Shown here one piece after another: positions 9,674 to 25,521 of a stretch of DNA of 64,000 nt. Position numbers and translations under genes: made by a program. Location of the stretch: positions 2,883,501 through 2,947,500 of the forward strand of contig NZ_CAHJXL010000001.1 in NCBI RefSeq assembly GCF_903645315.1, read 5' to 3'. The notes under the pieces are model-generated. The model had not been told where the DNA came from. It saw only the letters and a list, made by a program, of their open reading frames with translations, and did no database searches. This stretch comes from Victivallis sp. Marseille-Q1083 (GTDB taxonomy: Bacteria > Verrucomicrobiota > Lentisphaeria > Victivallales > Victivallaceae). Numbering within the stretch: position 1 is the first letter of the stretch; each line of letters begins with the position of its first letter.

Positions 9674-11959
9674 TTACTTGACGCACATGACATGGTAAAT
9701 GCCGTCGATGACTTCCGTTCCTTCGGTGACGTGCTCGAAGCCCGGGAAGGAATGATCCCAGTCCTCCAGCGATTTGAGGTAACCGATCTGCGGGCTGTCG
9801 GCGCCGCCGAAATTTTCTCCGGACATCAGCATCGGAATGCCCGGCGGATACGGGATGATCGAGTTGGCGCTGATCCGGTTCATCAGCTTGCCGCTCGGCA
9901 CCATTTCCACTTCGTTGGCGACGATCTTTTCATAGGCCTGCCGCGGCGTCATCGCCATTTTCGGCAGCGTCGCAAAGGCGGCGTTGAGCTTGGCGCCGGG
10001 GTTTTCCTTCTGCAGGTATTCGAACATCCGGTTGCTCAAATCCCGGATGCCGACGTTGCCGTAAACCGCCGGGAAGGCGTCGGCCAGTTCCGGCAGCACT
10101 TCCGCCACCGGCACGTTTTTGTCATAGAACTGCTTGAAGGCCAGTAGCGTATTGATCAGCGTACCCCATTTCCCCTTGGTGATGCCCATTGAGAACAGGA
10201 ACATGATCTGGAAGTCGGTCGTCCGGGTCGGGACGATTCCTTCGTGGTACAGATAGCTGGAGACCAATGCCGCCGGCACGCCGCTCTGCAGCAATCTGCC
10301 GTCGTCGCCCATGCCGGGACCGAGGATGCTGACTTTGATCGGGTCGAGCATCACCCAGTTGTCCTCCAGGTCGGTGAAGCCGTGCCAGGTGTCTTTCGGA
10401 TCCATCCGCCAGCACTTCTGCTCGGTGATCAGCAGTTCCCGCGGCGCATCGGCGAAATCGTAGACTTTGCCGGTTGCCGGATCGGTGACTTTTTCCGCAT
10501 TCCACGGTTTGAAGAACCAGGAACCCTTTTTGGTGAAGTCGCGGTACAGCCGGGCCATCGCCTGGCGGAAATCGACCGCTTCCTCAATCACTTCGCGGGT
10601 CAACGAGGTACCGCTTTCGTTCATCATCGCCGTGGAGATGTCGTTGGAGGCGCAAATCGCGTACAGCGGCGAGGTCGTCGCATGCATCATGTAGGCCTGG
10701 TTGAACCGGTTGAAGTCGATCGAATCCTTGCCGTTGCGGATGTGGATGTAAGACGCCTGCGACAGTGCGTTGAGCAGTTTGTGGGTCGACTGGGTCGCGA
10801 AGACGGTCGGGCCGTCGTAATCGGCCGGAATTTCACCGCGCATCGCGAAATGGTCGGCGTACATCGGGTTGAACCGGGCGTAACCGTACCAGGCTTCGTC
10901 GAAATGGACCCGGTTGACGGTCAACGCCAGTTCATCCTGCACTTTGGCGGCGTTGTAGCACAGGCCGTCATAGGTGCAGTTGGTGACGACTGCATAGGCC
11001 GGTTTGTCGTATTTCGGCTTGAGGCCGGTGGCGGCGATTTTGGCCTTGATGGTGGCCGGGGTCATTTCCGAACGATGGATCGGTCCGATGATGCCGTAGC
11101 GGTTGCGGGTCGGGATCAGGTAAACCGGGATGGCGCCGGTCAGGATCAGGCCCTGTTCGATCGATTTGTGGCAATTGCGGTCGCAGATGGCGATATCGCC
11201 TTCGCGCAGACAGATCTGCATGACGGTCCGGTTGGAGCCGGAGGTGCCGACGACGACCGAATAGGATTGGTCGGACCCGAATACCTTGGCGGCGAATTTT
11301 TCGCTGACGCCGAAGGCGCCGGAGTGATCGAGCAGCGAACCGATGCTGGAACGTTCGATGCCGGTGTCGGTGCGGAAGAGGTTTTCCCCGTAAAAGTCGT
11401 AGAATTTCTTGCCGGCCGGACTTTTGGTGAAACCGACGCCGCCCTGGTGGCCCGGTGCCGCCCAGGAGTATTCGTGGCTGTCTTCGTTGTACTGCCAGAT
11501 CGCTTTCATCAACGGCGGCAGCAGGAGATCGCGGAACCGCTTGATGGCCGCTTCCACCCTGCCGGCGACGAAGACCGGGCTGTCCTCGAAGATCCAGACG
11601 AATTCGCTGACCAGCGCCATCAGTTTTTCCGACATTGCCTGGGCGGTTTTCGCCCGGTCAGCCAGCAGGAACACCGGTACTTTGGCTTGGCGGTCCTTGA
11701 TGAATTTCAACAGTTCGATCGCTTTGAGTTCACTCTTGGCGTCCAGTTCCATGTCGCTGGTGATCATGAAGCAATCGATGTCCATGTTATTGCCGACGAT
11801 CGGCCAGGCTTCCGCGTAGGAATCGGCCTGGATGACCCGGATGTTGTTGTCGAGCAGAACTTCGCTCAAATTGTCCAGCGCCATATTCATGGCGCCGTTG
11901 GCGGCGCTGCGTTCGTCGAGAACGATCAGAACCTGATAGGTGTCGATGTTGTTCGTCAT
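9674..11959 (-). CDS. adiA: Biodegradative arginine decarboxylase, AdiA-type
   Basis: A 761-residue PLP enzyme that turns arginine into agmatine and consumes a proton, used for acid resistance. It keeps the full AdiA layout: an N-terminal wing domain (1-130, with DIDCFMITSDME and VPVFLLADRAKT), a linker, the PLP domain with HEYSWAAPGHQGGVGFTKSP, VVVGTSGSNRTVMQ, HFDEAWYGYARFNPMYADH and the Schiff-base Lys394 in STHKLLNALSQ, and the C-terminal domain ending GIYHVMCVK. Length and wording are very close to Escherichia coli AdiA (755 residues). GAGGAG precedes the ATG. The gene is second in an operon, 39 bases after an antiporter gene that would exchange substrate and product. Confidence 0.95.
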   Translation of the reverse strand: MTNNIDTYQVLIVLDERSAANGAMNMALDNLSEVLLDNNIRVIQADSYAEAWPIVGNNMDIDCFMITSDMELDAKSELKAIELLKFIKDRQAKVPVFLLADRAKTAQAMSEKLMALVSEFVWIFEDSPVFVAGRVEAAIKRFRDLLLPPLMKAIWQYNEDSHEYSWAAPGHQGGVGFTKSPAGKKFYDFYGENLFRTDTGIERSSIGSLLDHSGAFGVSEKFAAKVFGSDQSYSVVVGTSGSNRTVMQICLREGDIAICDRNCHKSIEQGLILTGAIPVYLIPTRNRYGIIGPIHRSEMTPATIKAKIAATGLKPKYDKPAYAVVTNCTYDGLCYNAAKVQDELALTVNRVHFDEAWYGYARFNPMYADHFAMRGEIPADYDGPTVFATQSTHKLLNALSQASYIHIRNGKDSIDFNRFNQAYMMHATTSPLYAICASNDISTAMMNESGTSLTREVIEEAVDFRQAMARLYRDFTKKGSWFFKPWNAEKVTDPATGKVYDFADAPRELLITEQKCWRMDPKDTWHGFTDLEDNWVMLDPIKVSILGPGMGDDGRLLQSGVPAALVSSYLYHEGIVPTRTTDFQIMFLFSMGITKGKWGTLINTLLAFKQFYDKNVPVAEVLPELADAFPAVYGNVGIRDLSNRMFEYLQKENPGAKLNAAFATLPKMAMTPRQAYEKIVANEVEMVPSGKLMNRISANSIIPYPPGIPMLMSGENFGGADSPQIGYLKSLEDWDHSFPGFEHVTEGTEVIDGIYHVMCVK

Positions 11960-11998: not shown

Positions 11999-13477
11999 TT
12001 AAATTGCCAGCCAGCCGACGGAAAATGCGATGACTGAGCCGATTGCCACGACGGTGATTGCAATGGCACCGATCAATTCCGGTTTGGTGAAGATCGGCTG
12101 TCCTTTGGCGTTCGGATCCGATTCGATCGCCTTGCGCCGGGTGTAAATGTAGACCGGAATGCCGATCATCAGAAAGACGAAGGCCAGCGCCATATATTTC
12201 AGGCCGGCGGCGTAGATCATCCACACGCCATAGATGGAGCCGAGGATGCCGCAGGCATAGGCGAAGTGGAATTTGACCGGCATGTTGGCCGGATACTGCT
12301 TTTTCGCGCAGATTTCCCAAAGATAGGCGGTGCAGGCCAGGTAGGGCGGCAGGATCATCACGGCGGTGATGGTCAGCATGAAAATCCAGGCGGTGCTGTC
12401 GAAGTAAACCATGATCATCGTCACCTGCATGACCAGACTGGGGACCCACAGCGAAACGTTCGGCATGTTGTTTTTGTTTTCCCGGGTGAAAATTTTCGGG
12501 AAGGTTCCGTCCTGGGCGGCGGCGTACGGAATCTGGGCGATCATGATCGTGAAGGCCAGCCAGGAGGTCAGCAGCGCGACGATGACGCCGAGGTTCATCA
12601 GCCAGCCGCCCCAGTCGCCGACGACATCCTGCAGCAGCGGCGCGGTCGAAGGATTGGCCAGGCCGGCCAGTTCCGGCTGGTACATCTTGCCGAACGGCAG
12701 GATGGACAGCAATGCGTAAATCAACAGGCAGGCCAGAAAACCCAGCACGGTGGCTTTGCCGACCGCGCTCTGGCTTTTGGCTTTGCCGGAAACCACCACG
12801 GCGCCTTCGATGCCGATGAATGCCCAGAGGGTGACCGGCATCGTCGATTTGATCTGGTCGATCAGACTGCCCAGCGGTTTGATGCCGTGGGCCGGAATCG
12901 TCTCAGTGCCCATGACGTCGGTGCTGAAGAAGGTCCAGCGGAACACGTAGAGCATGATCAGGATAAACAGCAGGATCGGCACCAGTTTGCAGATCGTGCC
13001 GATCGTGTTGATGAAGGTCGCCTGCTGCATGCCGCGCAGCACGGCGAAATTCATCACCCAGATGATGATCGAACCGCCGATGATCGACCAGATGTTGTTG
13101 CCGCCAGTGAAAGTGCCCGGAAAGAAATAATTCATCGCATCCATCAGCAGCACGGCGAAGCCGACGTTGCCGAAAATATTGCAGAGCCAGTAGGCCCAGG
13201 CCATTTCGAAGCCGGCGAATTTGCCGAAACCCAACCGTGCGTAAGCGTAAATACCGGTCGTCGCATCCGGCCTGGCGTCGGCCAGCACCCGGAAGGTATT
13301 GGCCAGGAAGAACATGCCGATACCGGTGATCACCCAGGACAGGATGACCGCCGTCAATGCGGCGCTTTGGGCCATGTTTTGCGGCAGGCTGAAAATGCCG
13401 CCGCCGATCATTGCGCTGACGACCAGCGCCGCCAGTGGGATTACGCCAAGTTTTTTGCTGTCACTGCTGTCCGACAT
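11999..13477 (-). CDS. Basic amino acid / amine antiporter (APC superfamily, ArcD/YdgI-like)
   Basis: A 492-residue inner-membrane transporter with about 12-13 hydrophobic segments. The first segment has VVSAMIGGGIFSLPQN, the GxG(I/V) substrate motif of APC antiporters; later ones have YAYARLGFGKFAGFEMAWAY and LWAFIGIEGAVVVSG. Its wording is nearer the arginine:ornithine antiporters (ArcD, YdgI) than AdiC, but the following gene is an AdiA decarboxylase, so arginine:agmatine exchange is the likely duty. It is the first gene of the operon, preceded by GAGGAG and a leader of about 390 bases that contains a tiny open frame. A matching decarboxylase/antiporter pair is divergent from it. Confidence 0.88.
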   Translation of the reverse strand: MSDSSDSKKLGVIPLAALVVSAMIGGGIFSLPQNMAQSAALTAVILSWVITGIGMFFLANTFRVLADARPDATTGIYAYARLGFGKFAGFEMAWAYWLCNIFGNVGFAVLLMDAMNYFFPGTFTGGNNIWSIIGGSIIIWVMNFAVLRGMQQATFINTIGTICKLVPILLFILIMLYVFRWTFFSTDVMGTETIPAHGIKPLGSLIDQIKSTMPVTLWAFIGIEGAVVVSGKAKSQSAVGKATVLGFLACLLIYALLSILPFGKMYQPELAGLANPSTAPLLQDVVGDWGGWLMNLGVIVALLTSWLAFTIMIAQIPYAAAQDGTFPKIFTRENKNNMPNVSLWVPSLVMQVTMIMVYFDSTAWIFMLTITAVMILPPYLACTAYLWEICAKKQYPANMPVKFHFAYACGILGSIYGVWMIYAAGLKYMALAFVFLMIGIPVYIYTRRKAIESDPNAKGQPIFTKPELIGAIAITVVAIGSVIAFSVGWLAI

Positions 13478-13795
13478 AATTTTCTCCTCTTGATTGTAAT
13501 TCGGAACGCTATTGAAAATTTTATTTTTATTCGCCGTCGAACCTCCAAATTCAACGGAACGAAATCAACCCGGCCGTGGGGGTGACTTTCCGGCGACGAG
13601 TCTGTCAGGGCAATAAAATGCGATTCCGTCTTGTAATGCTATTCTCTTGTCGATTGACCCGCTCCAGCGGAATGTTCGAAAAATGTCACTGAATGACGGA
13701 ATGCTCCCGTTGCCGGAATTGATCGCGACAGCGGCGGCGGAAAACCGGAAAATGTTTCCGCGGCCGGTCGGACGACAAACTCCGCCCGGAAAAAA

Positions 13796-13825
13796 TCAGC
13801 CAAGAAAAAGATGGTAAGTCGGCAT
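13796..13825 (-). CDS. Candidate leader peptide upstream of the antiporter-adiA operon
   Basis: The minus strand has AGAGGAGG five bases before an ATG that opens the nine-residue frame MPTYHLFLG and then TGA. The ribosome site is one of the strongest in the window, and the frame starts 40 bases downstream of the shared bipartite motif, well inside the presumed leader RNA and about 320 bases before the antiporter start. It could be a regulatory leader peptide. No classical anti-terminator pair is obvious downstream, and the peptide has no run of arginine codons, so the mechanism is unknown. Confidence 0.4.
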   Translation of the reverse strand: MPTYHLFLG

Positions 13826-13864
13826 GGTTCCTCCTCTAATAATACGCTTCACTTCATTAAAATA

Positions 13865-13892
13865 AAATTACTCGCTCTCTGGTTTACCAATA
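13865..13892 (-). promoter_or_regulatory. Shared bipartite motif, copy facing the antiporter-adiA operon
   Basis: On the minus strand TATTGGTAAA (13892-13883), CC, then AGAGAGCGAGTAATTT (13880-13865). Both blocks recur exactly in front of the divergent decarboxylase gene, with a 4-base instead of a 2-base gap. TTGAAT lies 15 bases upstream of TATTGG, so this may be the promoter core plus an operator or the first bases of the leader RNA. Confidence 0.65.
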
Positions 13893-14081
13893 GCACGGTT
13901 TCGGAAGATTCAAAATAAAATTTATAAAAAAAGACGTATTTTTTTCACCGTCCGGGTTGGCTTGAGCGTATCGAAGCCATTGCGGCAGTTGAGTTCAACA
14001 TGTTCGGCGGGAAGCGGCTATACTTTGGATACGAAGAGCGTGGAAACATTTCCGCTCAGAAAATTTTTTTGAATTTTTTTC

Positions 14082-14134
14082 TTGACAGTTGATCGGATCA
14101 ATGGTATTGGTAAAAAATAGAGAGCGAGTAATTT
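14082..14134 (+). promoter_or_regulatory. Promoter and shared bipartite motif of the second decarboxylase operon
   Basis: A perfect TTGACA (14082-14087) is followed after 17 bases by TATTGG (14105-14110), a weak -10. TATTGGTAAA (14105-14114) and AGAGAGCGAGTAATTT (14119-14134) are identical to the copy facing the other way 210 bases off. The 16-base block would overlap the start of transcription, which suits a repressor or activator site or a common leader RNA element. Confidence 0.68.
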
Positions 14135-14240
14135 CCCCGAAATTCTTTAATAATTGTTTATTTTTTTTTCAGTCTGCCGTTTTGGTGTCGCCGGATTTCA
14201 GCGGCGCCGGGCGGAGAGCACTGGTCGCAGTCTGCCGGGA

Positions 14241-14267
14241 GATATTGTTCAGGAGTAAGACAATATC
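14241..14267 (+). promoter_or_regulatory. Leader hairpin before the second decarboxylase
   Basis: GATATTGT (14241-14248) and its complement ACAATATC (14260-14267) enclose an 11-base loop containing CAGGAG. It lies 44 bases upstream of the start codon in the leader RNA. No T run follows, so it is not a terminator; a control or stability role is possible. Confidence 0.35.
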
Positions 14268-14311
14268 GCAACAGCCGGCTTTAATGTCTATCAATGAAGA
14301 GGAGTAGAAAA

Positions 14312-16615
14312 ATGAAGACAGAAAAATCCCAATGGCCGATTCTGTTGGTATCCAAACAATTGGGAGCAGACAACGACGATGCGTTCCGGTTGCGCGAGCT
14401 GATCGCGGAGCTGGAAAATGTCCAGGATTGCACGGTGATCGTCTCTTGTTCCTATGAGGATGCGCTGGAAATTTCGGTTTCCCGTGCCGATTTGGGGACA
14501 ATCATCATCGATTGGGATCTGCCGTTGGAAAATCAATTGGAAGCGATGACGCCGGACGCGTTTGTCGCCGCGATCCGGCAGCGCAACCGGACCATTCCTT
14601 TGATCCTGCTGACCGACCGCCTGGAGACGGAAAATCTGCCGACCGATGCGCTCGCGGAGATTACCGATTGCCTGTGGAAAACCGCCGATCCCGTTCCGTT
14701 CCGGGCCGGTCGGTTCGTCGATGCGCTGGGGCGGTATCTGCAGAGCTTCTACCCGCCATTTTTCGGCGAACTGGTCAAATATGCCGAACAGTACAAATAC
14801 GCCTGGCATACGCCCGGGCACCTCGGCGGGCAGGGGTTCCTGCGCAGCCCCGCCGGCGTGGCGATGTACAAGTATTTCGGAGAAAATGTCTTCCGTTCCG
14901 ATCTGTCCATTTCGGTGCCGGAGCTGGGATCGCTGCTGGATCACGAAGGCGTCGTCTGTGATGCCGAACGCAATTCCGCCCGCGCTTTCGGCGCCGATCA
15001 GACCTATTACGTGCTGAACGGCACGTCGACGGTCAACCAGATTGTCTGGCGCAGCCAGTTGGTGCGCGACGACATCGCTTTCGTCGACCGCAACTGCCAC
15101 AAATCGTTGAATTATGCGATGGTCATCACCGAAGCGTTGCCGGTTTACATGATTCCGCGGCGCAACAAGCGCGGCATCATCGGTCCGGTCCGGCTGTCGG
15201 AGTTCACGCCGGCTTCCATCCGGCAGAAAATCGACGCCAGTACGCTGATTCCGGCGGAACTGAAAAAGAATCCGGTCAAAATGTCGGCGTTGACCAATTC
15301 CACCTACGACGGCGTCTGCTACAACGTCGTCAATATCAAGAAGCAGTTGGAAAAGAGCGTCGAGAATCTCCATTTCGACGAAGCGTGGTACGCCTACGCC
15401 TGCTTCAGTCCGATGTACAAGAACCATTACGGCATGGCCGAGGACGAACTCCAGGCCGATCATCCGCCGATCTTCTGTTCGCAGTCGACCCATAAACTGC
15501 TGACCGCCTTCTCGCAGGCGTCGATGCTGCACATCAAGAACGGCGGCAGCATCAGGATCAATCCGGACGAATTCAACGAGTCGTATATGATGCACGGTTC
15601 CACCTCGCCGCAGTACAGCATGATCGCGTCACTGGATGTGGCGACCAAGATGATGCAGGATAACGGCGGCGTGATGATGCGCGACATCATCCTTGAGGCG
15701 GTGCAGTTGCGCAAAAAAACCGCTTCGCTGAACCGGGAATTTGCCGCCAGGGGCGACTGGTTCTTCGATATGTGGCAGCCGCGCAAGGTCAAAGCCGACG
15801 GCCGGACCGTCGATTTCTGCGACGCCGAGACCGATTATCTGGCCGATCACCAGGAACCGTGGGTGATGCGCAGGGACAACAACTGGCACGGCTTCGACGA
15901 CATTGAGGACGATTATGTCATGCTCGACCCGATCAAGCTGACCTTTACGACGCCCGGACTGGACGACGACGGCCGGATGGGCAATCGCGGCATTCCGGCC
16001 GGTATCGTCACCAATTACCTGATCGATCGCAATATCGTCTGCGAAAAGACCGATTATTATTCCTTCCTGATGCTGAATTCGCTGGGAACCACCCGGGCGA
16101 AGCAGGGTTCGCTGCTTGCCGCGCTGCTGCAGTTCAAACGCGATTTCGACGGCAATACGCCGCTGGCCGACATCTTCCCGGCCCTGGTCGACGCGCATGG
16201 CGAACGCTATGCCGGCGTCGGATTGAAAGACCATTGCCTGAACATGCACCGCTATATCAAAGAGCACGACATGCTCGGCAAAATGCAGGCTGCCTTCCAG
16301 ATCATTCCGGACCAGGCCCTCAAACCGGCGGACGCCTATCACGAAGTGGTGCGCCGCAACGTCGAATATGTCTTCCTCGACGCTATGATGAACCGGATTC
16401 CGGCGGTGATGATGGTGCCGTATCCGCCCGGCATTCCGATCATGATGGGCGGGGAAAAGATGAATGAAAAGGCACGTCCGATTTTCGAATACCTCAAGGC
16501 CCGCGAAGATTTCGAAAACGAATTTCCGGGTTACGAAGGCGACATCCACGGCGTGGAACGCGAAGTCCGCGACGGCCGTACCTGCTTCAAAACCATGTGC
16601 ATCAAATCCAAATAA
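14312..16615 (+). CDS. Ornithine/lysine/arginine decarboxylase, LdcI-like paralogue
   Basis: A 767-residue PLP-dependent decarboxylase, paralogue of the neighbouring AdiA. I start at ATG 14312, 9 bases after GAGGAG, not at the in-frame ATG at 14294 whose codons overlap that site. A divergent wing domain fills 1-140, then HTPGHLGGQGFLRSPAG, SDLSISVPELGSLLDHEG and LNGTSTVNQIV, which resemble inducible lysine decarboxylase more than AdiA. Schiff-base Lys395 is in STHKLLTAFSQ, and the C-terminus has MVPYPPGIPIMMGGEKM. The substrate could be lysine, ornithine or another amino acid and cannot be fixed by eye. It is followed by a GadC-like antiporter gene. Confidence 0.88.
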   Translation: MKTEKSQWPILLVSKQLGADNDDAFRLRELIAELENVQDCTVIVSCSYEDALEISVSRADLGTIIIDWDLPLENQLEAMTPDAFVAAIRQRNRTIPLILLTDRLETENLPTDALAEITDCLWKTADPVPFRAGRFVDALGRYLQSFYPPFFGELVKYAEQYKYAWHTPGHLGGQGFLRSPAGVAMYKYFGENVFRSDLSISVPELGSLLDHEGVVCDAERNSARAFGADQTYYVLNGTSTVNQIVWRSQLVRDDIAFVDRNCHKSLNYAMVITEALPVYMIPRRNKRGIIGPVRLSEFTPASIRQKIDASTLIPAELKKNPVKMSALTNSTYDGVCYNVVNIKKQLEKSVENLHFDEAWYAYACFSPMYKNHYGMAEDELQADHPPIFCSQSTHKLLTAFSQASMLHIKNGGSIRINPDEFNESYMMHGSTSPQYSMIASLDVATKMMQDNGGVMMRDIILEAVQLRKKTASLNREFAARGDWFFDMWQPRKVKADGRTVDFCDAETDYLADHQEPWVMRRDNNWHGFDDIEDDYVMLDPIKLTFTTPGLDDDGRMGNRGIPAGIVTNYLIDRNIVCEKTDYYSFLMLNSLGTTRAKQGSLLAALLQFKRDFDGNTPLADIFPALVDAHGERYAGVGLKDHCLNMHRYIKEHDMLGKMQAAFQIIPDQALKPADAYHEVVRRNVEYVFLDAMMNRIPAVMMVPYPPGIPIMMGGEKMNEKARPIFEYLKAREDFENEFPGYEGDIHGVEREVRDGRTCFKTMCIKSK

Positions 16616-16717: not shown

Positions 16718-18148
16718 ATGGCTGCTACCAATGGCTCGAAAGGTACGATGAGTGTCTTTACGATGGCAATGCTGACCGTGGCGGCGGTATTGTCACTGCG
16801 GAATCTGCCGAGTCAGGCGGATTACGGCTACAGTATTATTTTCTATATCACGGCGGCGGCGGTCTGCTTTTTCCTGCCGTCGGCGCTGGTGTCGGCGGAG
16901 CTGGCGTCCGGCTGGCCGCAGGACGGCGGCGTTTATTTGTGGGTGAAGGAGGCGTTCGGGCCGAAATGGGGGTTTGTCGCCATTTTCATGCAATGGGTGG
17001 AGAACCTTCCCTGGTTCCCGGCGGTGTTGACCTTCGTCGCCTCGGCGATCGCCTATGTGTTCAATCCGGAATTGGCTACCAGCCGCTGGTTCGTCTTCAT
17101 CACCATCCTGGTGATGCTGTGGCTGGCCACCTGGCTGAACTTCCACGGCATGAAGCTTTCGGCGTTTCTGAGCAGTTCCGGCGCGCTGGCCGGGACGGTG
17201 ATTCCGGGGATCGGCATCATTCTGCTGGCGGCGGGTTATCTGATCGCCGGCAATCCGCCGAGCATTCAATTCTCGGTCGGCGCCATTTTCCCGGAAATGA
17301 ACAACCTCAATCAGTTGATGCTGCTTTCCGGCATGATGGTGGCGCTTGCCGGGATGGAAATGTCGGCGATCCACGTCACCGAGATGTCGAACCCGACCAA
17401 ACAGTTTCCGAAAGCGATTTTCAGCGCCTGCGCCGTGGTGATTTTGTTGAGCGTGTTCGGCGCGCTGGCCATCGCATTGGTGATTCCGGAGAATGACATC
17501 AGCCTGGCAGCCGGCGCCTGTCAGGCTTTCGACAAGATTTTCCAGATCTTTCACATCGAGTGGATGACGCCGATCATGTGCTTCCTGCTGGCTTACGGCG
17601 CCTTGACGATGGTGGTCACCTGGGTGCTCGGTCCGTCCAAGGGAGTACTGGAAGTCGCCAGGGAAGGTTATCTGCCGCAGTACTGGCAGAAGCGCAACAA
17701 GAACGGCATGCCGACCCGGATTCTGATCGTCCAGGCGACGATTTCCTCGCTGTTGGCGACAGTGGTGTTGTTCATGCCGACCATCAGCGGCGCGTTCTGG
17801 ATCATGTCGGCGCTGACCGCCCAGTTGTATATGATCATGTATCTGCTGATGTTCGCCGCGGCGATCAAATTGCGTTATTCCAGGCCGGATGTGCCGCGTC
17901 CCTACCGCATTCCCGGCGGAAAGCTCGGCATGTGGATCGTTTCCGGCATCGCTTTTCTGACCGCGTTGCTGGCGATTTTCGTCGGTTTCATCCCGACCGG
18001 CGGGGTTCGTGAAAAAGGTATCGAAGCGCAATTCATCTATATCGCGTTTCTGTTCTTCGGTTCGGCGATCTTCGTGCTCATTCCGTTGTTGTTCTATCAT
18101 ATCTATGAAAAGGAACAGGCGAAAAAGGGCAAGGCGAAAGCCAGATGA
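16718..18148 (+). CDS. Amino acid antiporter, GadC-like (APC superfamily)
   Basis: A 476-residue inner-membrane transporter with about 12 hydrophobic segments. AVLSLRNLPSQADYGYSIIFY, the FFLPSALVSAELASGWPQDGGVYLWVKEAFG stretch and ALAGMEMSAIHVTEMSNPTKQFPKA match the glutamate:GABA antiporter branch (GadC, YjeM-like). GGAGG stands 8 bases before the ATG. It follows the LdcI-like gene by 102 bases on the same strand, so it probably exchanges that enzyme's substrate for its amine product. The antiporter branch (GadC) and the decarboxylase branch (LdcI) do not normally pair, which leaves the real substrate open. A C-terminal basic tail ends the protein. Confidence 0.87.
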   Translation: MAATNGSKGTMSVFTMAMLTVAAVLSLRNLPSQADYGYSIIFYITAAAVCFFLPSALVSAELASGWPQDGGVYLWVKEAFGPKWGFVAIFMQWVENLPWFPAVLTFVASAIAYVFNPELATSRWFVFITILVMLWLATWLNFHGMKLSAFLSSSGALAGTVIPGIGIILLAAGYLIAGNPPSIQFSVGAIFPEMNNLNQLMLLSGMMVALAGMEMSAIHVTEMSNPTKQFPKAIFSACAVVILLSVFGALAIALVIPENDISLAAGACQAFDKIFQIFHIEWMTPIMCFLLAYGALTMVVTWVLGPSKGVLEVAREGYLPQYWQKRNKNGMPTRILIVQATISSLLATVVLFMPTISGAFWIMSALTAQLYMIMYLLMFAAAIKLRYSRPDVPRPYRIPGGKLGMWIVSGIAFLTALLAIFVGFIPTGGVREKGIEAQFIYIAFLFFGSAIFVLIPLLFYHIYEKEQAKKGKAKAR

Positions 18149-19666: not shown

Positions 19667-19696
19667 TTGAAACGAATTGCTATAAGGAACGCAACA

Positions 19697-21724
19697 ATGA
19701 CCGAACAGTATCGATTCCCCCGTTATCCGGCGGTGCCGCTGGTGGTGCACGACCCTTATTTCAGCCTCTGGTCGTTTGCCGACAAATTGACCGACAACTG
19801 GAGTTCTCACTGGACCGGAGCGATTCAGTCGTTGTGCGGGATGCTGCGCATCGATGGCGTCGCCTGGCGGTTTGCCGGGATCTGGGGCGATCTGCAGCCG
19901 ATGGAGCAAATCGGTCTGGAAGTTTGGCCGACCCGGACGGTTTACCGGTTCGCCGCTGCCGGCGTTGAACTGACGTTGACTTTTCTGACGCCGGCTTTGC
20001 TGCATAAGCTGGAGATTCTGTCGCGGCCGGTGAGCTATGTGGAATTCCGCATTCGGTCGCTCGACGGGAAAGCGCACGACGTGGCGTTGTATTTCGACGC
20101 CGGCGGCGAATTGTGTCTCGACAATGTTTATCAGGCGGCGACCTGGGGGCGGCTGCGGCTGGAAGGGCTGGAAGTGATGACGGTTGCCGCGGCGGAACAG
20201 CGGCCGTTGCACCGGGCCGGTGACGACCACCGCATCGATTGGGGACGGTTCTACCTGGCGGTTCCGCAACAGTACCGGCCGATGACGGCGATCCGGTCGA
20301 ATTTTGAATTGCGCGGCTGTTTCGTCGCCGGCGCCGCGTTGCCGGACAGCGACGATTTTCAACCGCAACGCATGCAGTTTGACGGCTGGGTGAGCCCCGG
20401 TATGGCGGTGGAACTCGGAACCGTGGAGCGCGAACCGGCCGAAGTGATGCTGATGCTGGCATACGACGATGTCTGGAGCGTCGAATATCTCGGCCGCAAA
20501 CTGGCGGCCTACTGGCGGCGGAATGGGCGGGATTTCGGTGAAATGCTGCGGCAGGCCTGGCGGGAATATCCGGCGCTGCGGCAGGAATGCGCCGCCTATG
20601 ACCGGGAATGGATGAACGATTGCCGTCAAAGCGGCGGCGAAGCTTATGCGCATTTGTGCGCGTTGGCGTTCCGGCAGGCGATCGGCGCTCACAAGCTGGT
20701 GGCCGATGAACAGGACCGGCCGTTGTTCTTTTCGAAGGAAAATTTTTCCAACGGCTGCATTGCGACGGTGGATATCACTTATCCGTCCGCTCCGCTGTTT
20801 TTGCTGGCCCAGCCGACACTGCTCAAGGGCATGCTGCTGCCGATTCTGGATTACGCCGAAACCCGGCGCTGGAAATTTCCGTTCGCGCCGCATGACCTGG
20901 GAACTTATCCGCTGGCCAACGGCCAGGTGTATGGCGGCGGCGAACGCGACGAGCTGGATCAGATGCCGGTCGAGGAGTGCGGCAACCTGTTGCTGCTGGC
21001 TGCTGCGCTGGTCAAATTTGCCGATGAATTGGAATTTGCCCGCCGCTATTATCCGACGCTGAAGCAGTGGGCCGATTATTTGAATGAAAAAGGTTATGAT
21101 CCGGAGAACCAGCTTTGCACCGACGACTTCGCCGGCCATCTGGCGCACAATACCAATTTGTCTTTGAAGGCGATTCTGGCCCTGGCGGCGTTCGCGCAGT
21201 TGGCCGGACGGCTGGGTGAAGATGCGGCGGCGGTCGCCGTCTACCGGCAAAGCGCGGAAACTTTTGCGGCGCACTGGCGGCGGGACGCCTGGGCCGGCGA
21301 CCACTATAAACTGGCGTTCGACCGCGAGGTTTCCTGGAGCCAGAAGTACAATCTGGTCTGGGACCGGCTGCTGGAGCTGGAGTTGTTTCCGGCGGAAGTG
21401 GCGGAGACGGAGCTGGCCTGGTACCGTGTCAGGCAGGAGCGTTACGGCCTGCCGCTGGATAACCGGAAAAGTTATACCAAATTGGACTGGATCATCTGGT
21501 CGGCGACGCTGACCGGCCGTGACGAGGATTTCCAGGCGCTGCTGCAGCCGGTTGCCCGCTGGCTTGCCGAGACGCCGAGCCGGGTGCCGCTGACCGATTG
21601 GTATGATACGCTGGACGGCCGCCAGGTCGGTTTTCAGGCCCGGTCGGTGGTCGGCGGCGTTTTCATCAAATTGCTGGCCGATGCGGCGATGCGCTCAAAG
21701 TGGCGGGCCGGGCTGGCGGAGTGA
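19697..21724 (+). CDS. GtaA-type glutaminase family protein (DUF4965/DUF5127/DUF1793)
   Basis: A 675-residue protein of the fungal-type glutaminase A family. The start at 19697 is 8 bases after AAGGAA; an in-frame ATG ten codons earlier lacks a site. The opening PAVPLVVHDPYFSLWSFADKL and HWTGAIQSLCGMLRIDG are diagnostic of the N-terminal domain. The central and C-terminal six-hairpin-like parts have FSKENFSNGCIATVDITYPSAPLFL, APHDLGTYPLANGQ and CTDDFAGHLAHNTNLSLKAILAL. I see no signal peptide, unlike most secreted fungal relatives. Substrate could be glutamine or a glycan, since the fold resembles (alpha/alpha)6 glycosidases. It stands alone between its own promoter and a strong terminator. 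Confidence 0.85.
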   Translation: MTEQYRFPRYPAVPLVVHDPYFSLWSFADKLTDNWSSHWTGAIQSLCGMLRIDGVAWRFAGIWGDLQPMEQIGLEVWPTRTVYRFAAAGVELTLTFLTPALLHKLEILSRPVSYVEFRIRSLDGKAHDVALYFDAGGELCLDNVYQAATWGRLRLEGLEVMTVAAAEQRPLHRAGDDHRIDWGRFYLAVPQQYRPMTAIRSNFELRGCFVAGAALPDSDDFQPQRMQFDGWVSPGMAVELGTVEREPAEVMLMLAYDDVWSVEYLGRKLAAYWRRNGRDFGEMLRQAWREYPALRQECAAYDREWMNDCRQSGGEAYAHLCALAFRQAIGAHKLVADEQDRPLFFSKENFSNGCIATVDITYPSAPLFLLAQPTLLKGMLLPILDYAETRRWKFPFAPHDLGTYPLANGQVYGGGERDELDQMPVEECGNLLLLAAALVKFADELEFARRYYPTLKQWADYLNEKGYDPENQLCTDDFAGHLAHNTNLSLKAILALAAFAQLAGRLGEDAAAVAVYRQSAETFAAHWRRDAWAGDHYKLAFDREVSWSQKYNLVWDRLLELELFPAEVAETELAWYRVRQERYGLPLDNRKSYTKLDWIIWSATLTGRDEDFQALLQPVARWLAETPSRVPLTDWYDTLDGRQVGFQARSVVGGVFIKLLADAAMRSKWRAGLAE

Positions 21725-23986: not shown

Positions 23987-25084
23987 ATGCGGCGTTATGA
24001 CCGGGCGCTGGCGGAATTCCGGCGCGATAAATTCCGGCGGCTGGTGCTGGCCGCCGTGGCCGGCGTGATGCTGGCCCATCTGCTGCCGATGAATAGTACG
24101 GTTTTCATCGGTTTGTATCCGGCCAGCATCCTGCTCGGCATGGACCGGTTTTCCGTCGGCGCGCTGCTGCTGCGCTGCGCTACATTGCTGGCCGGTATGG
24201 TCGTCGGAACTTTGATCATCGAAGCTTTCATGAATGCTCCGATCCTTTCGGTCATGATTACTTATGGCGTATTTCTGGTGATTCTGAAACTCTTTGCGAT
24301 CCAGTTTGAAATGGGCAATGCGTACAGTTTCATGTTCGCTTATTCGTTGAGCACCATCTATGCGAGCTATCCGGATTCCACGATGGAGGCATCCATCACC
24401 GAACCCTATCTGATTCAGGCGGTGTTGATCTTTTTCGTGGTATGGGGATGTTTTGCACTGTTTCCGGCCCAGCCGCCGACCATTCGCAGGGCTTCGCCGC
24501 CGCCGCCGGAAATACAGGTCGGAAACGGCGAATTGATGATTTATGCTTTGATCTGGCTTGGCATCTGGTTGTTTTTCCTATTTTTCGAATGGCGTTTCGC
24601 CCTGTTCGCCTTCCTCAGTTTTGCCGGAGCGTTCCGCTGCTTTGACCGGAACGTGCTGAAAAAGATCACCCGGGAGAATATCATTGCCCATGTATTCTGC
24701 TGTTCGGTGGCGGCGTTGTTCAGTTTGCTGCTGCCGGGAACCGGCGGGAATATCCTGGTACTGCTCGCCGGCTTGATCGTGCTGGTACTGCCTTTTCTGC
24801 ATGCGGCGGTCTTTCCGCCGAAGCCAGAACTCGCTTATCGTTGCAGTACGATGCTTTCGGGGCTGCTGGTGCCGCTGATCCTCTACCTCGGCACCGATCA
24901 CGCGGCGGTTTATCAGAGTGCGCTCCGGGCGGCTTTGATCGTTTTTCTGATGGTAATCCTGTATCTGGTGATTGAATCTCTTTATCATGGCGGTACAGTA
25001 GTGAAAAAAGTTTCCCGGTGCTGGCGGCAGCATGCCGAGCCGGACCGGCAACCGGAGGATCAGTCATGTACCAGCCGAATCTGA
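23987..25084 (+). CDS. Inner-membrane efflux protein, DUF2955/FUSC-like
   Basis: A 365-residue protein with two blocks of hydrophobic segments (about residues 18-155 and 180-330), the layout of the AaeB/YccS/FUSC group and of DUF2955. AAVAGVMLAHLLPMNSTVFI and ALFAFLSFAGAFRCFDRN are typical of the two repeats. With the HlyD adaptor it should form an exporter, probably of aromatic acids or similar toxic compounds. GGAGCGG lies 5 bases upstream. The stop codon overlaps the marR start by 19 bases, which argues for coupled translation. No outer-membrane factor gene is nearby. Confidence 0.82.
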   Translation: MRRYDRALAEFRRDKFRRLVLAAVAGVMLAHLLPMNSTVFIGLYPASILLGMDRFSVGALLLRCATLLAGMVVGTLIIEAFMNAPILSVMITYGVFLVILKLFAIQFEMGNAYSFMFAYSLSTIYASYPDSTMEASITEPYLIQAVLIFFVVWGCFALFPAQPPTIRRASPPPPEIQVGNGELMIYALIWLGIWLFFLFFEWRFALFAFLSFAGAFRCFDRNVLKKITRENIIAHVFCCSVAALFSLLLPGTGGNILVLLAGLIVLVLPFLHAAVFPPKPELAYRCSTMLSGLLVPLILYLGTDHAAVYQSALRAALIVFLMVILYLVIESLYHGGTVVKKVSRCWRQHAEPDRQPEDQSCTSRI

Positions 25085-25521
25085 TCGCCCGCGCGGTCTG
25101 GGCGGTCTGCCGCCATCAGCAGGCCGGCTTGAGCCGTCTGCTTGCTCCATACCGTCTCGGCGGCGGTTCTTACGTTTATCTGCTGATCATTGCGGAGAAT
25201 CCGGGTATTACCCAGATCGAATTGAGCAGCCGCCTGGCCATCGACCGGGCGACGGTCAGCAAAATGTTGGCGATTCTAGAACGGGAAAATCTGATTCGCC
25301 GGTTCCCGCACCCGGACGACCGCCGTTCCGCCAAACTCGAAGCGACGCCGCAGGGGATGGAAACTTTCGACCGTCTGGCCAGGACCGTGACCGGTTTCCG
25401 CCTGAAGATGCTGGAGGGCATTGCGCCGGAGGAGCAGGAAGTCACCCTCCGTACCTTGCGAAAGATTCTTGCCAACATCCGGGAACCCGGCGACGGTGAA
25501 TCCGATTTTTTCCGGCAGTAG
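25066..25521 (+). CDS. MarR-family transcriptional regulator
   Basis: A 151-residue winged-helix regulator. The ATG at 25066 overlaps the end of the exporter gene and follows GGAGGA by 7 bases. The winged helix covers about 35-105, with ITQIELSSRLAIDRATVSKMLAILERENLIRRFPHPDDRRSAKLEATPQG, in which the D-RR of the wing is conserved. As last gene of an HlyD/FUSC operon whose promoter carries a perfect palindrome, it most likely represses the operon until an aromatic or phenolic ligand binds. The ligand is unknown. Confidence 0.92.
   Translation: MYQPNLIARAVWAVCRHQQAGLSRLLAPYRLGGGSYVYLLIIAENPGITQIELSSRLAIDRATVSKMLAILERENLIRRFPHPDDRRSAKLEATPQGMETFDRLARTVTGFRLKMLEGIAPEEQEVTLRTLRKILANIREPGDGESDFFRQ

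Follow-up and report, generated by a model that had tools for sequence, protein, structure and literature searches.

Genes at the locus

The window analysed here is a stretch of 64,000 nucleotides from the genome of Victivallis sp. Marseille-Q1083 (4.82 Mb, 5 contigs). It contains two divergent operons, each of which pairs an amino-acid decarboxylase with an antiporter (Table 1). A sequence-only reading had labelled the minus-strand pair ArcD-like/AdiA-like and the plus-strand pair LdcI-like/GadC-like. The AdiA label is upheld by the NCBIfam equivalog (NF011603, 1263.7 bits against a cut-off of 1167), and the ArcD-like protein passes the broad family TIGR00905 only. The proteins of the plus operon exceed their Pfam family cut-offs, yet they fall below every NCBIfam cut-off listed. 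The decarboxylase scored 602.2 against 968 (PRK15399) and 561.7 against 1056 (PRK15400) as LdcI/LdcC, and the antiporter scored 512.8 against 650, 457.4 against 640 and 285.4 against 673.5 as a GadC equivalog. Because this pair passes no curated LdcI, AdiA or GadC cut-off, LdcI-like and GadC-like are loose names. The genes are called ldc and gadC here. The best solved chain for ldc, 6q6i, is named biodegradative arginine decarboxylase in its structure entry; we take it to be Pseudomonas LdcA.

Decarboxylase/antiporter systems of acid resistance are familiar from enteric bacteria (AdiA-AdiC, LdcI-CadB and GadB-GadC). The window resembles them in its decarboxylase and exchanger pairs and in having AdiA as the minus-strand decarboxylase. 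It differs in its second pair, which joins an Orn/Lys/Arg-type decarboxylase with a GadC-like exchanger that scores below the curated cut-offs.

Six neighbouring proteins in the window were scanned with Pfam (an HNH-repeat protein, TauE, a glutaminase A-like protein, N_methyl, and two with no match), and no regulator was recognised among these six. The glutaminase A-like protein (PF16335) is encoded at 19667-21724 (+), 1.5 kb past the GadC-like exchanger. By eye, an ORF that lies 7 kb past gadC (25066-25521, +) resembles a MarR-type regulator.

Table 1. Features of the two divergent operons, and the R1 leaders of relatives. Unless a locus is named, positions are those of the window.
Feature	Position	Strand	Remarks
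AdiA, arginine decarboxylase	9674..11959	-	NF011603, cut-off passed
arcD, basic amino acid/polyamine antiporter	11999..13477	-	TIGR00905 (broad), cut-off passed
arcD-adiA mRNA leader, predicted extent	13478..13880	-	
Leader ORF MPTYHLFLG*, predicted	13796..13825	-	read from sequence
Strong Shine-Dalgarno of leader ORF, AGAGGAGG	13830-13837	-	read from sequence
16-base block AGAGAGCGAGTAATTT	13865..13880	-	exact match; putative start of arcD-adiA leader
10-base block TATTGGTAAA	13883..13892	-	exact; putative -10 region, TATTGG 13887-13892, extended -10 TG 13894-13895
TTGAAT, weak candidate -35	13908..13913	-	15-nt spacer (short); read from sequence
TTGACA, -35 of plus promoter	14082..14087	+	17 nt ahead of TATTGG
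10-base block TATTGGTAAA	14105..14114	+	exact; putative -10 region, TG at 14102-14103
16-base block AGAGAGCGAGTAATTT	14119..14134	+	exact match; putative start of ldc-gadC leader
ldc-gadC mRNA leader, predicted extent	14119..14311	+	
ldc, Orn/Lys/Arg decarboxylase	14312..16615	+	best solved chain 6q6i; no curated subfamily cut-off passed
GadC-like antiporter	16718..18148	+	scores under curated GadC cut-offs
R1 leaders	L253:1374-1503; L250:1374-1503; L252:1371-1503; L254:3790-3920(-); nine others		directly upstream of ldc

Two mirrored blocks between the operons

The same 10-base and 16-base blocks stand before both operons, mirrored, as had been claimed; the matches are exact at all four positions. 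The 10-mer and the 16-mer are separated by 2 bases on the minus strand and by 4 on the plus strand. The stretch from one 10-mer to the other measures 212 bases (about 210 in the sequence-only reading). A search of the whole genome returned two exact 16-mers, both at the window operons, and no unrelated exact copies, so the objection that many copies would have raised falls away. With up to three mismatches there are 36 matches: the 2 exact ones, 1 with two mismatches and 33 with three. One identical word, AGAGAGCGACTGATTA, accounts for 21 of these 33. Its flanks are identical over 150 bases in 18 of the 21 copies, the 18 being those whose loci were examined, and the copies thus appear to be copies of one repeated sequence, probably a mobile element. 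On this genome search, descent of the exact 16-mer from a repeat family was rejected. Outside the genome itself, the 16-mer with at most one mismatch was found in 3 of 99 relatives (G020, G051 and G054). The near matches in G051 and G054 lie on contigs other than those with decarboxylase matches, and G020 has no decarboxylase match.

The longest word common to the two upstream halves is 16 bases, a length reached by none of 3000 dinucleotide shuffles. Lone 16-base inverted repeats are nevertheless common: six shuffled windows each held 2 to 4 of them, and 28 inverted and 146 direct repeated 16-mers were counted in the real one. Since a single 16-base inverted repeat is ordinary, the weight rests on two blocks standing in register before both operons.

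The surroundings of the blocks have diverged, with 9 of 30 bases identical just downstream and 7 of 16 just upstream of TATTGG, as is expected if the blocks alone are constrained. These counts also bear on recent local copying, in which a short promoter segment would have been duplicated and inverted within the 210-base region, so that age and not function would explain the identity. All 26 bases are exact, the T-rich upstream stretches align loosely, and the genomes searched included no second one of the genus, all of which suits such an event. A copy should, however, be continuous, yet the flanks and the -35/-10 spacer have diverged, a 2-base indel lies between the blocks, and a distant gene set of the same history has a shortened block (see below). 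We consider local copying very unlikely.

The blocks as probable promoter elements

On both strands TGn stands before TATTGG, and on the plus strand TTGACA precedes it at 17 nt. Promoters of the main sigma factor may have an extended -10 of the TGn-TATAAT type, and these need little of a -35. Given TTGACA-17-TATTGG on the plus side and TGn on both, the best reading is that the 10-mer is a promoter -10 and that the transcript begins with the 16-mer. What the sequence-only reading termed a bipartite control motif would then be a -10 and a transcript start rather than a free-standing bipartite operator. With its TTGACA, 17-nt spacer and TGn, the plus side resembles extended -10 main-sigma promoters in part, but TATTGG departs from TATAAT/TATATT (3 of 6 positions agree with TATAAT) and is not a consensus -10, and a strict promoter scan listed no promoter at either block. 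The minus site has no main-sigma -35 at 16-18 nt; TTGAAT stands at 15 nt, and TGn-TATTGG is present. To our knowledge, extended -10 main-sigma promoters carry no fixed 16-base word downstream.

The pattern TTGACA-N16-18-TATNTT has 48 matches in the genome, against 4 for the same pattern read backwards, and this enrichment indicates a promoter type of the genome. Thirty of the 48, those with loci, were read. Their purine content 6-22 nt past the -10 averages 0.49, compared with 0.75 and 0.69 at the window sites; GAGAG occurs within 30 nt of the -10 in 1 of the 30, and GAGG or GGAG in 5. A general purine-rich promoter start was therefore rejected, as it is absent from these 30 promoters as a class. 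A third decarboxylase/antiporter pair lies at about 3.74 Mb in the genome. Within 400 nt upstream of it neither AGAGAG nor TATTGG is found, and GAGAG occurs once.

A third site upstream of secretin genes

The one promoter with GAGAG among the 30 lies on the minus strand at G000:C1:468676, 2.43 Mb from the window blocks, and reads TTGACA-17-TATTTT-TAGTTTTA-AGAGAGTAATTATG, with AGAGAGTAATT 8 nt past the -10. It was noticed during the reading of the 30 promoters, without prior prediction. Downstream of it are three genes (secA-secB-lipo, L366:132-3703, -), of which two encode secretins and the third, a small one, a putative lipoprotein. Both secretin domains exceed the PF00263 cut-off of 27.5 bits (42.1 and 64.5), and the small third protein looks like a lipoprotein by eye.

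The pattern AGAGAGN{0,5}TAATT has 5 matches in the genome, of which 3 stand before pieces of the decarboxylase/secretin gene set; the other two are upstream of an HlyD-like gene (131,887) and at 1,741,396. The count of 5 equals that of the backwards control, so it is the location of the matches and not their number that is informative. For one of the three matches outside the window operons to lie upstream of secA at a distance of no more than 600 nt, the chance is 1.9e-4, and the location of the third site does not look like an accidental placement. At the HlyD-like gene (L367:2888-4318, contig 1 near 131,887; HlyD_3 21.7 bits, narrowly below the 22.2 cut-off), AGAGAGTAATT stands 8 nt past TAAATT. 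This gene is possibly a further member of the regulon, or a chance match.

Beyond the block, no likeness above shuffles was found among the three leaders of the genome, and the stretch compared for the secretin genes ran into an insertion element. This transposase-bearing element of ~1.6 kb (L366:3724-5320), with 12-bp terminal repeats (TTCTGCGAAATA), lies directly before the first secretin gene. Given this position, the promoter may no longer reach the secretin genes in this genome.

Gene order in relatives

Unlike the enteric systems, relatives combine the decarboxylase/antiporter pairs with genes for two secretin-domain proteins and, often, for a small putative lipoprotein. The most complete set, in G024, is ldc-gadC-secA-secB-lipo-arcD-adiA, seven genes in one direction. 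Parts of it occur as ldc-gadC-secA-secB-lipo (G023), secA-secB-lipo-arcD-adiA (G095), secA-secB-lipo-arcD (G039) and, with no lipoprotein match, secA-secB-arcD (G033, G042 and G007). In G049, ldc-gadC and arcD-adiA lie in one direction on one contig. Secretins were seen beside decarboxylase/antiporter operons at L065:7761-11405 (G024), L238, L239, L248, L237, L072 and L083. It would be unusual for an acid-resistance operon to include an outer-membrane channel. A search of the window gave no match to the secretin or lipoprotein proteins.

The union of the modules in relatives and the shortened block before the third piece fit one control over all pieces. Co-regulation of the two operons, as first proposed, is thus supported by the unique block, by the unions in relatives and by the third site, which adds a target, and we infer it from these. 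No support was found for a specific regulator among the six neighbours scanned, nor for a leader-RNA structure in the window (see below).

Promoters of relatives

Ten arcD/ldc promoters were picked by eye from relatives. Their alignment shows TTGAxx, a spacer of 16-17 nt and a TAxxTT-like -10, mostly followed by a purine-rich start. One such start, AGAGAGAAGAAATTGC, belongs to the arcD promoters of G052 and G113. When it was searched with up to two mismatches in 78 family genomes, including that of Marseille-Q1083, these two, both upstream of arcD, were the exact ones among the matches listed; a further 23 matches with up to two mismatches lie outside those listed. In G106, AGAGAGAGGAAATTGC at a contig end was taken as the arcD promoter because the flanking sequence resembles that of G052. 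The starts before ldc are AGAGGAAGAAATTGC in G024 and AGAGAGAAGAGTTGC in G033. One relative with the divergent layout was found, G021, in which the ldc side has AGAGAGGGAAAATTGC and the arcD side AAGAGGAAAATTGC; its shared word of 10 nt is reached by 154 of 3000 shuffles. Between the promoter and arcD, G021 encodes a small protein, putatively a lipoprotein, in which an NCPMKAEA-like unit is repeated (L064:6600-7000, -).

The window -10s were set beside those of the relatives by eye. A profile HMM of the ten promoters ranked the plus site seventh in the window (E 27) and placed the minus site outside the best 12. A two-part weight matrix from 16 eye-picked sites of relatives ranked the plus site ahead of 28 of the 29 control promoters and the minus site ahead of only 17; 162 and 521 of 2558 window tiles, respectively, score as high, and 3 of the 16 training sites fall below zero when left out. 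In the secretin and HlyD-like leaders its best scores fall on a different stretch from AGAGAG-TAATT. Since neither method recovers both window sites and the G021 word is matched by shuffles, the tie between the exact sequence of the window and the sequences of relatives is weak.

A structured ldc leader in relatives

The ldc leader of 13 relatives is a covarying structured RNA of about 120-145 nt, which we call R1. An AG-rich tail (often AGAGGAG) follows a TATATTG-like sequence and leads into a long hairpin. The closing helix of this hairpin stops a few bases short of the Shine-Dalgarno sequence. In 10 sequences (G055, G051 and G111 were omitted for poor alignment) there are 29 predicted pairs, 15 of them with changes on both sides; in all 13 sequences the numbers are 18 and 10. 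Paired cells make up 94.8%, compared with 38-51% when one strand is slid, a test that favours R1 in that the structure was derived from the same alignment. None of 500 shuffles reaches any of five measures. R1 is convincing as an RNA structure.

The 13 leaders come from 23 loci that were read. Those left out were contig duplicates (L100, L102 and L103), leaders at contig ends (L251 and L104) and leaders unlike the rest by eye (L262 and its duplicate L107, L263, L090 and L084). Nine of the 12 labelled host genomes belong to genus g16, and two duplicates of R1 genomes are from yak and sheep colon. A covariance model built from the 13 sequences gave 12 strong matches in 78 family genomes (E <=6.2e-13, strict filters). 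All 12 are leaders used for building, each directly upstream of ldc, and the next best match has an E of 0.0022. R1 thus looks specific to ldc in the family, within the reach of the search. At the gathering score, Rfam yielded no leader or riboswitch match in the window and only two tRNAs in 15 relative loci.

The leaders of the window

R1 leaders are like the window in having an AG-rich tail directly after the putative -10 of an orthologous gene. It could be that the 16-mer is the 5′ tail of a structured leader akin to R1 that controls translation of each operon. The shared position and AG-rich character, the strength of R1 itself, and the long leaders and leader ORF of the window speak for this. 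The window leaders, however, do not match the R1 model: the search gave no full match, and the best hits in 13400-14400 scored at most 10.3 bits and skipped most of the model. They fold no better than shuffled sequences (z -0.81 for ldc and -1.74 for arcD). Pairing between the leader start and the region before the Shine-Dalgarno sequence is likewise no better than shuffled (p 0.66 for ldc and 0.47 for arcD). In the same test, 5 of 7 R1-type ldc leaders gave p <=0.05; among 17 other tests only that of G113 arcD fell below 0.05, with six more at 0.053 to 0.091, and the five tests on Marseille-Q1083 ranged from 0.20 to 0.66. The leader-RNA element that the sequence-only reading had offered as an option is therefore unsupported as a structure in the window, and we regard an R1-like leader there as unlikely.

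In the secretin leaders a hairpin that bears GAGGAG in its loop was suggestive by eye, but it was not significant in the 5 leaders tested (p 0.12 to 0.32).

Regulators and the operator alternative

The 16-mer might instead be a DNA operator at which a transcription factor binds over the transcript start of both promoters. Its position from +1 to +16 and its identity within the genome would suit an operator, and a lineage-specific word would be explained by co-evolution of factor and site. G021 has a different but internally similar word. Regulator genes also adjoin the operons in two relatives. In G049 a GntR-type gene lies beyond adiA (L066:588-1775, -), with a second gene that has a sensor domain only, and in G033 a LacI-type gene is divergent from secA (L238:6306-7334, +). 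These belong to different families, so no common regulator is indicated, and by eye no regulator gene recurs across 11 relative loci. Against an operator stand also the six window neighbours, none recognised as a regulator, the 2-base variation in distance from the -10, and the 16-mer itself, in which no dyad is seen. On balance an operator as the primary explanation seems rather unlikely.

Proposed reading

The reading that we favour, and hold to be probable, takes the mirrored blocks to be parts of two divergent promoters served by the main sigma factor: in each, an extended -10 (TGn-TATTGG) and the bases with which the transcript would begin (AGAGAGCGAGUAAUUU). The second block would be a regulon-specific leader-start element for three gene sets, placing arcD-adiA, ldc-gadC and the distant secretin/lipoprotein genes under one control. 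The gene sets may be pieces of one ancestral acid-response operon that have kept a common leader start. The element would act in the transcribed leader, by RNA pairing or binding, or through a protein over +1, and not upstream of the promoter. It lies downstream of the -10, tolerates changes in spacing and sits at the place of the AG-rich tail of relatives, and these features suggest action in or on the transcript. If the favoured reading holds, action on the nascent or finished RNA has a slightly better than even chance; a DNA operator at +1 is possible within it and clearly less likely. Acid pH as the sensed signal is a guess from the genes.

A broader idea can be built on these observations. 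The purine-rich leader start would mark an undescribed cis-regulatory leader-RNA family of Victivallaceae, with acid, an amino acid or a polyamine as its signal, which switches a dispersed regulon derived from an ancestral seven-gene operon (two decarboxylase/antiporter modules and a secretin-like channel pair), with R1 as its best-conserved form. We offer it as speculation and think it doubtful.

If the favoured reading is correct, it defines, from sequence alone, a small candidate acid-response regulon in Lentisphaerota and ties two secretin-domain proteins to amino-acid decarboxylation. R1 would be a new structured leader RNA with a directly testable signal. The case would also show how rearrangement may break up a long operon whose pieces go on sharing a leader start. 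Among the matches listed in a literature search of partial coverage (titles and abstract starts), there was nothing on regulation of these operons in Lentisphaerota, and nothing on this element for secretin, arginine decarboxylase and antiporter or for decarboxylase leaders. The element is not treated in the available portions of PMC2864571 and PMC10407285, and the relevant terms have no mention in the main text of PMC8040213, so far as it was accessible.

Short leader ORFs

In the literature searched, the closest in kind, judging from the accessible part of that paper, is the Salmonella speF leader with orf34, a long mRNA leader of a basic-amino-acid decarboxylase with a short ORF (PMC6386406). 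The window likewise has a long decarboxylase-operon leader with a short ORF, the nine codons of MPTYHLFLG in the arcD leader. Control of the speF/orf34 type involves consecutive arginine codons in the leader ORF, and this ORF has no arginine codon. Short leader ORFs with a TTG start codon inside AAATTGCG had been suggested by eye; they were dropped because the window has no such TTG and the lengths are not conserved. In the arcD leaders of several relatives, too, the first ORF is short and stands behind a strong Shine-Dalgarno sequence, and the sequences of these ORFs are not conserved. In G049, ldc is preceded by a lysine- and arginine-rich leader ORF (MKSCSRKSYDPG...; L066, about 12000-12190, -).
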